From: Chloroflexota bacterium
GTDB lineage: Bacteria; Chloroflexota; DTOL01; JACQYG01
Reading direction: 5' to 3'
Assembly (NCBI GenBank): GCA_016208345.1
Contig: JACQYG010000002.1
Coordinates: forward strand, 1-13,674
Length of the DNA stretch: 13,674 bases
Part shown: positions 482 to 2,951 of the stretch, piece by piece
How positions within the stretch are numbered: the stretch's first letter is position 1
How the letters are laid out: every line of letters starts with the position of its first letter
The notes under the pieces: model-generated
Databases searched by the model: none
Told to the model about the DNA's origin: nothing
The model's input: only the letters and a program-made list of their open reading frames with translations
Position numbers and translations under genes: made by a program

Positions 482-540
482 CAAGCAGAAGCCCCTCATC
501 GTGCATTTGGTGAGGGGCTTCTGCTTGTTCAGCTTCTTTT
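482..540 (+). terminator. Rho-independent terminator after the EF-G gene
   Basis: A perfect 17-bp inverted repeat (482-498 pairing with 511-527) encloses a 12-nt loop (499-510). It is followed on the plus strand by a T-rich tail at 528-540 (TTCAGCTTCTTTT). It sits 20 bp after the natural EF-G stop at 459-461 and directly beyond the tyrS stop codon on the other strand, so it separates two convergent genes. It lacks a clear T-run on the minus-strand side, so as a terminator for tyrS it would be weaker, though the stem itself is symmetric. Confidence 0.85.
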
Positions 541-1732
541 ACTGGTCGTGTTTTAGCAGGGCGCGGCAAAATCGCCGCTTGCCCACTCGAATCACGGAGT
601 TGACTACCGGGAGAACGGGGATCAGGCGGTCCGGGTCCAGTACTTTCTGGCCATCGACCTCCACCGCGCCTTGTAGCGTGAGCCTTTTGGCTTCGCTCTT
701 TGACCTGGCCAGTCCAGCATCAGCCAGGAAAGTGCAGAGCGCCACCGGCGCGGTGAGCTCGAATTCGGGCATGTCGCTGGGGAGCTCTCGTCGCTGGAAG
801 ATCCGGGTGAACTCGCCCTCGGCCGCCTTTGCTGCCCGCGGACCGTGGAATTGAGCCACGATCTCCCTGGCCAGGCGCATCTTTAGATCCCGGGGGTTCA
901 CCGTTCCGACCGCCATCCTCTCCTGCATGTCATCGATCTCGGCCTCCGTGACGTCGGTGGTCAACGTGAAGTACTCGATCAACACCGTATCGGAGATGGA
1001 CATGACCTTGCCATACATCTCCTCGGGCGGCTCAGCCAGGTCGATGGTATTGCCGAAACTCTTGCTCATTTTGCGCCCGTCGGCGCCCGTCAGGAGCGGC
1101 ACCAGGAACACGCTCTGGGGGGTCTTTCCCAGCATGGCCTGAAGCCGGCGGCCGACCAGGATATTGAACTTCTGGTCGGTGCCACCGAACTCCACGTCGG
1201 CATCTATGGCCAGCGAGTCATAGCCCTGCAACAGTGGGTACATCAACTCCATGATAGTTACCGGCTGGCCAGCCTTGAAGCGGCTGTCGTAGGTCTCATG
1301 CTCCATCATGTCGGCCAGAGTGAAGCGCCTGGTCAAATCGTACACGTCAGCCAGGGTGAACTTACCGAACCACTCGCTCTGCCAGCGTACTTCGGTTCGG
1401 TCCTTGTCCACCACCTTGAAAAACTGCTCCATATAGGTCTGGGCATTCTCTCTTACCTGCTCGGGCGAAAGGACAGAGCGGCTTTCGTCCCTGCCCGACG
1501 GGTCTCCAATCTGGGCCGTCCAGTCTCCAACGATCAGGACCACCTGGTGCCCCAGCTCCTGGAATTGCCGCAGCTTGCGCAGGGCGACGGCGTGGCCGAG
1601 GTGCAGGTCTGGCTTGGTGGGGTCAAACCCCAGTTTCAGCCTGAGGGGCCGGCCCGGCCGCAGACGAGCGAGCAGCTCTTCTTCGGTTATTATCTCCGCC
1701 ACGGCGCGATGCAGAAGACGGTCTAGATCCAT
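539..1732 (-). CDS. tyrS: Tyrosyl-tRNA synthetase
   Basis: A 397-residue cytoplasmic class I aminoacyl-tRNA synthetase that activates tyrosine with ATP and loads it onto tRNA-Tyr. The HIGH-like motif HLGH is at residues 44-47 and KMSKS at 221-225. The YPLLQGYD segment at about 165-172 and GGTDQKFN at 183-190 shape the tyrosine pocket. An S4 RNA-binding domain follows at roughly 330-395. Length and motif order match the bacterial TyrRS group with a short HLGH spacing and a C-terminal S4 domain, and the protein appears complete. The ATG at 1732 has a strong ribosome-binding site, AAGGGGG, seven bases upstream. The gene is separated from ribF by 247 bp that hold a dedicated promoter, a Tyr-containing leader peptide and a candidate attenuator, so its expression is probably controlled by tRNA-Tyr charging. 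It faces the EF-G gene and ends against the shared terminator. Confidence 0.97.
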   Translation of the reverse strand: MDLDRLLHRAVAEIITEEELLARLRPGRPLRLKLGFDPTKPDLHLGHAVALRKLRQFQELGHQVVLIVGDWTAQIGDPSGRDESRSVLSPEQVRENAQTYMEQFFKVVDKDRTEVRWQSEWFGKFTLADVYDLTRRFTLADMMEHETYDSRFKAGQPVTIMELMYPLLQGYDSLAIDADVEFGGTDQKFNILVGRRLQAMLGKTPQSVFLVPLLTGADGRKMSKSFGNTIDLAEPPEEMYGKVMSISDTVLIEYFTLTTDVTEAEIDDMQERMAVGTVNPRDLKMRLAREIVAQFHGPRAAKAAEGEFTRIFQRRELPSDMPEFELTAPVALCTFLADAGLARSKSEAKRLTLQGAVEVDGQKVLDPDRLIPVLPVVNSVIRVGKRRFCRALLKHDQ

Positions 1733-1794
1733 ATTCGACCCCCTTCATACAGAAATGCCATGGACGTGACGACGCCCATGGCCAAAAAAGGCAC

Positions 1795-1834
1795 AAAAAT
1801 AGCCACGGGCCTCGGCTTCAGCGTGCCCATGGCT
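1795..1834 (-). terminator. Candidate attenuator terminator in the tyrS leader (segments 3:4)
   Basis: On the minus strand, GCCATGGGC (1825-1833) pairs with GCCCGTGGC (1802-1810), with one G-U pair, plus an outer A-T pair (1834/1801). This gives about 10 bp around a 14-nt loop. A U-run follows at 1795-1799 and a second six-U run at 1784-1789. It lies 60-100 bp before the tyrS start, inside the leader, so it would stop transcription before tyrS unless an alternative fold forms. The 5' arm is the same stretch needed for the antiterminator, so the two structures exclude each other. Confidence 0.6.
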
Positions 1835-1916
1835 TGGTGTTTGGCCCTGCTATGCTTCCACACCAGGCCCCTGGGCACGCCGGCGATAGACATACTTGAA
1901 ACCTCGCGTGCTCAGG
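1821..1916 (-). promoter_or_regulatory. Competing hairpins of a tyrS transcription attenuator (pause 1:2 and antiterminator 2:3)
   Basis: Segment 1 (1906-1916, CCTGAGCACGC) pairs with segment 2 (1870-1880, GCGTGCCCAGG) over 10 of 11 positions. The 25-nt loop between them carries both UAU Tyr codons of the leader peptide. Segment 2, extended to 1861-1880, also pairs with segment 3 (1821-1839): nine uninterrupted pairs (1872-1880 with 1821-1829), then two more, then five (1861-1865 with 1835-1839). Segment 3 contains the 5' arm of the terminator. A ribosome stalled at the first Tyr codon would partly cover segment 1 and leave 2 free to pair with 3. A ribosome reaching the leader stop (1850-1852), in the loop between 2 and 3, would cover 2 and let the terminator form. 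This is the logic of classical amino-acid attenuators. The pairings are read directly; the mechanism is inferred, and no energies were computed. Confidence 0.6.
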
Positions 1917-1924
1917 AAGTCCAT
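1850..1924 (-). CDS. Tyrosine-containing leader peptide of tyrS (24 aa)
   Basis: A 24-codon open frame, ATG at 1924-1922 and TAG at 1852-1850. It begins MDFLSTRGFKYVYRRR and ends AQGPGVEA. Tyr codons 11 and 13 (both UAU) lie at 1892-1894 and 1886-1888. A GAGG ribosome-binding site ends 10 bases ahead of the ATG, and the ATG is about 24 nt from the predicted transcript start. The Tyr codons sit in the loop between attenuator segments 1 and 2, and the frame runs through segment 2 and stops in the 2:3 loop, as a ribosome-sensing leader should. Two Tyr in 24 residues is modest enrichment, so the case rests on position, ribosome-binding site and the surrounding RNA folds. An overlapping 56-codon frame is discussed and rejected elsewhere. 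Confidence 0.5.
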   Translation of the reverse strand: MDFLSTRGFKYVYRRRAQGPGVEA

Positions 1925-1954
1925 TTGACTAATACCTCAACCTAACGTGCACCG

Positions 1955-1983
1955 ATGATAGCACTTCCGTCACCGATTGTCAA
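1955..1983 (-). promoter_or_regulatory. Strong sigma-70-type promoter of tyrS
   Basis: On the minus strand, a perfect -35 box TTGACA (1978-1983) is followed by a 17-bp spacer and a -10 box TATCAT (1955-1960), with TGC just before the -10 (extended -10 type). The predicted transcript start is near 1948, giving a leader of about 216 nt before the tyrS ATG. The -35 box overlaps the ribF stop codon (1980-1982), so tyrS has its own transcription unit beginning exactly where the upstream gene ends. Confidence 0.8.
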
Positions 1984-2951
1984 GGCTCAGCCGGAGTCTC
2001 TTGCGGCCTGAGCGAGGCTTGCAAGTCGGGGCGCCCCAGCAGCATCTTCCGAGCAGCGACCACGTCGGCCTCGATCTGGGCGACCAGCGCGGCCACGGAA
2101 GCGAAACGCTCCTCCCCTCTCAACCGACTCACGAACTCGATCTTCAACTCCTGTCCGTAGATATCCTCGTCGAAATCCAGTATATGGACCTCAACCGTCC
2201 GCAACCCGTTATCGAAAGTGGGCCTGGTGCCGATGCTGGTTACCGCTGGACGTGATTCGCCCCGGATGTAGGCGTAAACCACGTACACGCCATCCAAGGG
2301 GATGGTGCGCTCCGGCGGGACCGCAATGTTGGCAGTTGGAAATCCAATGGCTCGGCCGCGACCTGCCCCTAGCACCACTAAGCCGCCCAGGCTATAGCGG
2401 CGACCCAAGAGCCCCTGTGCTCTGGCAACATCGCCGTTTCTTAGAAGATCCCGGATCCTGGAGCTGCTCACGATTGCCCCGCCGACGACTACTGGCCCCA
2501 CGGCGTTGACGGTGAAGCCCAATTGTTCTCCAATGGACCGCAGCACCTCCACCGTGCCCTCCCGGTGGCGTCCCAACGCAAAACCATCACCTACCACGAG
2601 TTCCTTAACCCGTAGGTGGCTAGAGATCAGTTGCACGAACTCCTGAGCGGAAAGGCACGCTAACTGTGGGGTGAAGGTTAGGGTGGCGACGACATCTATG
2701 CCCAGCGACTTGATCAAGCCGAGACGTTCCGGTAGGTCGTTCAGATAGGTCTGCTGTATGCCCTGGCCGAGAACCGCCCGGGGATGAGGGTGAAAGGTAA
2801 TGGCCGCGCTCAGACAACCCGCCTCCTGGGCTCGAGCGACGGCTCGCCGAAGCAGCTCTTGATGGCCAATGTGAACCCCATCGAAGACCCCTACACTGGC
2901 CACCACATCGCTATCGGGAGCGATCTTCTCCAGCTCTTCAACCACCTGCAT
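1980..2951 (-). CDS. ribF: Bifunctional riboflavin kinase / FMN adenylyltransferase
   Basis: A 323-residue two-domain enzyme that phosphorylates riboflavin to FMN and adenylates FMN to FAD. The N-terminal nucleotidyltransferase domain carries GVFDGVHIGHQ at 21-31 (the HxGH-type nucleotide motif), FHPHPRAVL at about 53-61 and SSSRIRDLL at 162-170. The C-terminal riboflavin kinase domain starts near 182 with GRAIGFPTAN at 199-208, GTRPTF at 241-246 and the acidic VEVHILDFDEDIYG at about 253-266. Length is normal and both domains look complete. It starts 30 bp after the truB stop, the common truB-ribF pairing. The ATG at 2951 has only a modest ribosome-binding site (AGGG seven bases upstream). 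Its TGA is embedded in the -35 box of the tyrS promoter. Confidence 0.97.
   Translation of the reverse strand: MQVVEELEKIAPDSDVVASVGVFDGVHIGHQELLRRAVARAQEAGCLSAAITFHPHPRAVLGQGIQQTYLNDLPERLGLIKSLGIDVVATLTFTPQLACLSAQEFVQLISSHLRVKELVVGDGFALGRHREGTVEVLRSIGEQLGFTVNAVGPVVVGGAIVSSSRIRDLLRNGDVARAQGLLGRRYSLGGLVVLGAGRGRAIGFPTANIAVPPERTIPLDGVYVVYAYIRGESRPAVTSIGTRPTFDNGLRTVEVHILDFDEDIYGQELKIEFVSRLRGEERFASVAALVAQIEADVVAARKMLLGRPDLQASLRPQETPAEP

Follow-up and report, generated by a model that had tools for sequence, protein, structure and literature searches.

The tyrS gene of a Chloroflexota bacterium is very probably controlled by a ribosome-mediated, tyrosine-specific transcription attenuator, a mode of regulation that we infer from the sequence of its leader. 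The leader lies on the minus strand of the 13,674-nt stretch of DNA that we analysed (the window; contig C2 of bin G000, which is 74% complete). In the proposed mechanism, RNA polymerase would start near position 1948 with a ribosome close behind it, translating a 24-codon leader. When charged tRNA-Tyr is scarce, this ribosome would stall at the UAU of codon 11 and mask RNA segment 1, leaving segment 2 free to pair with segment 3 before segment 4 is made; no terminator would form and tyrS would be transcribed. When charged tRNA-Tyr is ample, the ribosome would instead reach the stop codon (1852–1850), where segment 2 could not reach segment 3; segments 3 and 4 would then pair and transcription would end near 1795–1784.

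The mechanism itself is known; what is apparently new is the gene (tyrS), the specificity (a Tyr codon signal) and the phylum (Chloroflexota), to which classical attenuation would be extended. Among the matches listed in our searches of open-licence papers there was no Tyr leader of tyrS, in keeping with the sequence-only reading that preceded this analysis, and no leader-peptide system for Chloroflexota. Like the tyrS leader, the ribosome-mediated attenuators of the enterobacterial trp, his, leu, thr, ilv and pheA operons (a list given in PMC1183508) have a leader peptide in which codons for the cognate amino acid cluster, 2:3 and 3:4 helices that compete, and a U-run; unlike them, the tyrS leader precedes a synthetase gene, carries two Tyr codons one apart and belongs to Chloroflexota. 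Leader-peptide control of aminoacyl-tRNA synthetase genes also has precedents. PMC1262725 reports that attenuators precede trpS and leuS in Streptomyces; it also cites the gamma-proteobacterial pheST case and places tyrosine under T-boxes; these systems concern Trp, Leu and Phe in other phyla, in contrast to Tyr here. In bacilli, according to PMC2965389, leader peptides with His codons stand in front of hisS and hisZ, likewise at synthetase genes that are elsewhere under T-boxes, with His and Firmicutes in place of Tyr and Chloroflexota.

In Firmicutes the same gene, tyrS, is under a T-box, which binds tRNA directly; here, in line with the sequence-only reading, which saw no T-box consensus, no T-box reached the Rfam gathering score in the window, and the same was found for 20 + 20 loci of relatives. 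The signal of the Firmicutes tyrS T-box is uncharged tRNA-Tyr, as proposed here. The window matched no Rfam family at that family's gathering score; three matches were weak, and sX11 was the best of them (23.5 bits, its gathering score being 70; E = 0.018).

Anatomy of the tyrS leader

In the window, tyrS (539–1732, minus strand), encoding tyrosine--tRNA ligase (TIGR00234, 357.7 bits, cut-off 113.8), is preceded by ribF (1980–2951, minus strand), with a 247-nt leader between the two. Before ribF, on the same strand, are a TruB-like and an NrnA-like gene, both below the NCBIfam cut-off, and rbfA. The sequence-only reading had described in this leader a promoter, a 24-aa leader peptide with UAU at codons 11 and 13, four RNA segments and U-runs, and direct reading confirmed their coordinates. 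The putative sigma-70-type promoter, TTGACA-17-TATCAT (1983–1955; TTGACA at 1983–1978, TATCAT at 1960–1955), is a consensus match only, at 11 of 12 positions, and is the sole such site in 1600–2100, where shuffles average 0.2; it would place the transcription start near 1948. A probable Shine–Dalgarno sequence, GAGG (1938–1935), also kept in the sister genome, lies 10 nt before the ATG of the leader ORF (1924–1850), whose 24 codons, closed by TAG, are predicted to encode MDFLSTRGFKYVYRRRAQGPGVEA. Codons 11–13 are the putative regulatory codons UAU GUC UAU (1894–1886), with UAU at 1894–1892 and 1888–1886.

The four segments follow in order on the minus strand. Segment 1 (1916–1906) can pair with 1880–1870 at 10 of 11 positions. 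Segment 2 (1882–1860), in which GGCGTGC is invariant across three genomes, has segment 1 or segment 3 as alternative partners. Segment 3 (1840–1819) can form the antiterminator with segment 2, or pair through 1834–1825 with segment 4 (1810–1801), the 3′ arm of an intrinsic terminator of 10 pairs that is followed by U-runs at 1799–1795 and 1789–1784, the first of which is also present in both relatives described below. The predicted 2:3 helix agrees with that of the sequence-only reading and is larger than its 9+2+5 pairs, the fold giving 11+3+6 (1882–1872/1829–1819, 1869–1867/1833–1831 and 1865–1860/1840–1835). The comparison of 2:3 with 3:4 that this reading had suggested gives −38.1 and −20.3 kcal/mol, each helix being folded alone. 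The 1:2 hairpin is clear both in the window (−19.3 kcal/mol) and in the sister (−20.4 kcal/mol) and is not resolved in the more distant relative. The leader thus combines mutually exclusive antiterminator and terminator helices, the latter with a U-run, with a putative promoter, a long leader and clustered Tyr codons, as expected of an attenuator.

A second strong hairpin (1782–1757, 11 pairs, weak U-tract), absent from the sequence-only reading, adjoins the tyrS ribosome site on its upstream side; in the 5′ arm of this hairpin a part of segment 3 recurs. The sister keeps the stem with a changed loop; none was seen in the more distant relative.

Conservation in related genomes

The best named matches of the window TyrS are from Chloroflexota, which makes the earlier guess of a Gram-positive-type bacterium imprecise. 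Our comparison set contained a single congener (G001, locus L003, the sister), none further at family or order level, and others classed as same phylum, among them G011, the sole representative of its class. The TyrS of G001 is 97% identical to that of the window. Its leader peptide, MDFLSTRGFKYIYRRRAQGPGVGA, differs at V12I and E23G only, its promoter, TTGACG-17-TATCAT, by one hexamer change, and its helices, 1:2 among them, are kept, with the loss of the outermost 3:4 pair alone. In G011, whose TyrS is 63% identical to that of the window, the leader was found through a Tyr-pair screen of tyrS upstream regions: it has TTGACA-17-TATCAT, AGGAG, a 32-codon ORF ending QYIYLWRARGWGAIS, matching segments 2, 3 and 4 and the U-run, and is on these grounds of sequence homologous to the window element.

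The sequence-only reading had held that its proposal would fail if related leaders lacked both the Tyr-coding peptide and the base pairs. The related leaders that carry the element retain UAU-NNN-UAU, the spacing and both the 2:3 and 3:4 helices, which supports a tyrosine attenuator of tyrS. UAU AUC UAU stands in both relatives; 14 nt separate the first Tyr codon from segment 2, and 19 nt the segment 2 core from the stop codon, in all three genomes, with 10, 10 and 18 codons before the first Tyr codon in the window, G001 and G011. Among ten 2:3 pairs compared across the three, seven are invariant, two are one-sided variants and one is a double change, A-U to G-C, whose 3′ base remains paired in 3:4 (U-G to C-G); among nine 3:4 pairs, seven are invariant and two are one-sided variants. 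In register, all cells of both helices pair, against 23–43% in slid registers. The covariation that the sequence-only reading had proposed to look for is thin within this type: the Tyr codons are conserved and there is the one 2:3 double change, yet partner shuffling reaches the observed values in 157 of 500 and 500 of 500 rounds, three sequences leaving such a comparison powerless.

With blastn, the leader matched its own genome and the congener only (2 of 400 phylum genomes). A covariance model, R1, matches G011 at E = 7e-24, having been built with G011 included; searched against the 400 genomes with the stricter filters of Infernal, it matched 82 of them at E ≤ 1, and the matches in three (the window genome, G001 and G011) were convincing. 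Five further matched loci that we inspected (L140, L141, L142, L144 and L145) were rejected, since they proved to be coding sequence, DNA with no relation to the element or a common terminator-like hairpin.

Modelled folding around a stalled ribosome

In our folding model, the ribosome blocked 18 nt behind and 13 nt ahead of the start of its A site, the RNA upstream was kept unpaired and equilibrium folding was computed up to the end of the first U-run. Under these assumptions, a ribosome at the first Tyr codon is predicted to favour 2:3 (P = 0.97, 0.97 and 1.00 in the window, G001 and G011) and one at the stop codon 3:4 (P = 1.00 in each of the three); with segment 4 still unmade, the stalled ribosome gives 2:3 a probability of 0.99. 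Covering 9 or 11 nt ahead gave the same outcome as 13 nt; covering 15 nt lowered P(2:3) at the first Tyr codon to 0.09 in the window and 0.34 in the sister. When the RNA behind the ribosome was free to pair, P(2:3) at the first Tyr codon of the window became 0.42, 0.89, 0.75 and 0.24 for 9, 11, 13 and 15 nt. With the ribosome at the stop codon, this freedom made the sister favour 2:3 (0.58–0.68) while the window and G011 retained 3:4 (0.99–1.00); the stop-codon result arises partly because the RNA behind the ribosome was constrained not to pair. Placing the ribosome at the second Tyr codon favoured 3:4 in most settings, and ribosome-free folding gave P(3:4) of 1.00 in the window, 0.01 in G001 and 0.99 in G011.

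The geometry that the sequence-only reading had invoked, with stalling at the Tyr codons favouring antitermination, thus holds for the first Tyr codon at 9–13 nt with unpaired upstream RNA, fails at 15 nt in the window and the sister, and does not fit the second Tyr codon. That the stall and stop positions suit attenuation is plausible, not proved, because the outcome depends on the assumed footprint and on pairing behind the ribosome.

Probable Tyr leaders at other tyrS genes

Attenuation of tyrS through Tyr leader peptides is likely to be recurrent in Chloroflexota and to take at least two forms, that of the window and G011 and that of family f5, between which no obvious sequence similarity is seen by eye; most f5 leaders would be short and leaderless, with some genera sensing through the C-terminus of a conserved protein of about 167 aa (YYYSRP/YYARA). 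We surveyed 253 tyrS upstream regions, mostly from Chloroflexota with some from other phyla, the same genome possibly being present twice. A terminator was found in 37, and 13 of these had a Tyr-pair ORF before it, four of them in f5; the other 240 were negative in this combined screen. Two loci (L034 and L108) came without upstream sequence, and L132, one of the 253, was without the feature on recutting.

Family f5 was searched more widely: tyrS was obtained from 106 of 120 genomes, giving 107 upstream regions. A terminator is present in 97 of these, and in 93 an in-frame Tyr pair is shortly followed by a stop codon and then by the terminator. Some of the misses are contig edges, and L288, outside the 93, ends YYYSRL before a terminator; within the 93, the calls at L324, L333, L369, L371 and L379 are in doubt or have wrong boundaries. 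In an alignment of 39 leaders, bases pair in 218 of the 224 cells of six 2:3 pairs, against 21–71% when slid by 1–4, and double-change cells number 8 in the proposed register against 11 at slide −3, where only 71% of cells pair. The helices interchange between GCGATGGTG/CATCATCGC, GCGGTAGT/ACTATCGC and GCGAGGG/CCCTCGC. Linkers score 21.0 with their own hairpin and 18.9 with those of other genomes, the score with the own hairpin exceeding that mean for 34 of the 39, and linker shuffles gave p < 0.05 in 49 and p < 0.01 in 25 of the 93. The family offers about a hundred natural variants, some of them apparent losses, for probing what the switch requires.

In 15 of the 93 f5 hits an RPEL-like motif lies within a long frame that ends YYYSRP, YYARA and similar. 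In the other 78, a TANAAT-type box lies 4–9 nt before an in-frame start in 72, and at 6 nt in 49 (counts that carry no shuffle control), which suggests that the short f5 leader peptides are translated leaderless. Such short Tyr leaders, for example at L310, L309, L303, L312 and L109, start about 6 nt past a TATAAT-like box. At L292 (854–1354), and also at L294, L296, L306 and L313, the ORF just before tyrS is conserved, is about 167 aa long with stretches that look hydrophobic by eye, and carries tandem Tyr codons at its end, a terminator coming next in most cases. The 167-codon ORF of L292 has sub-threshold Pfam matches only (best bPH_6, E = 0.017). A full-length gene may here double as a leader.

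Outside f5, Tyr pairs precede terminators in seven of the other 31 terminator-bearing regions of the survey (shuffle mean 0.4, maximum 2) and Cys pairs in five (mean 1.0, maximum 3); the window and its sister are absent from the seven, the best-scoring hairpin used in this count being their second one. The Tyr pairs of f22 (CYYRC) and f17 (FSFC.YY) were dropped, their TATTAT and TACTAT reading by eye as −10 boxes. Two further loci, L068 and L197 (G191), have YTY and YIY with a terminator and are candidates only, no 2:3 helix standing out (p about 0.9). Their leaders are related, ending AYTYHSGL and TYIYSSGL, with a long hairpin that spans the stop and then a terminator, perhaps a different switch layout.

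Alternative explanations

The tyrS terminator could be governed by a protein, such as TyrRS itself, or directly by tRNA, the short ORF being incidental. Stable alternative helices would suit such control too, and the ribosome model is sensitive to its assumptions. Against it stand the fixed distances of the Tyr codons and the stop codon from segment 2 in diverged genomes and the absence of any T-box at gathering score from the window and the 40 relatives' loci. The codon specificity of the f5 leaders also speaks against it: among 96 regions with enough sequence, a Tyr pair precedes the best terminator in 89 (mean of 40 shuffle rounds 2.8, maximum 10), the next amino acid being Ser (25 of 96; mean 14.0, maximum 20). 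Ser exceeds its shuffle maximum too, as does Ala (18 of 96; mean 10.2, maximum 17), both by far less. We consider control by protein or tRNA unlikely and favour the ribosome-mediated attenuator.

More improbable still is a leader peptide that works through nascent-chain arrest, or that responds to a different amino acid such as arginine, and not to Tyr codon starvation. Three Arg codons, CGC CGG CGT, do follow the second Tyr codon in the window and the sister, but G011 carries Leu-Trp-Arg there, the core shared by the three peptides is Y-x-Y and R-A-x-G, with the R-A stretch encoding segment 2, and the controlled gene is tyrS.

Shuffling placed the anatomy of the leader well outside random expectation. 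The leader (1948–1733) folds with a z-score of −3.2, none of 200 shuffles being equally stable. Of 3,000 dinucleotide shuffles, 179 produced a terminator, one a terminator together with a Tyr-pair ORF, and none these two plus a 2:3 helix; the 2:3 helix score was matched by none of 200 linker shuffles. A chance meeting of an ordinary terminator, hairpins and a meaningless ORF, a reading that draws on some surveyed Tyr-pair ORFs seeming by eye to overlap −10 boxes, is hardly credible given the absence of the full anatomy from those 3,000 shuffles and its conserved homologue in G011.

Other observations

Tyrosine auxotrophy was dropped as a rationale for the switch, since all 6 genomes tested have PDH_N (prephenate dehydrogenase); the prephenate dehydrogenase family is present in G000, G001 and G011. 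In the same three genomes the chorismate-binding enzyme family (PF00425) was not found, all 14 controls being positive, and PheS (PF01409) was found in G011 alone, the two congeneric bins being incomplete.

At one surveyed locus (L119, in G149), a promoter-like sequence, an ORF without Tyr, MHALFANTRRSAAPDPG, and a terminator stand before tyrS. Elsewhere in the window, on the plus strand, an EF-G-like gene carries an in-frame TAG (309–311) in its C-terminal part (EFG_IV/EFG_C), at a position that is a sense codon in the congener L003; the TAG is either an assembly error or a real truncation.
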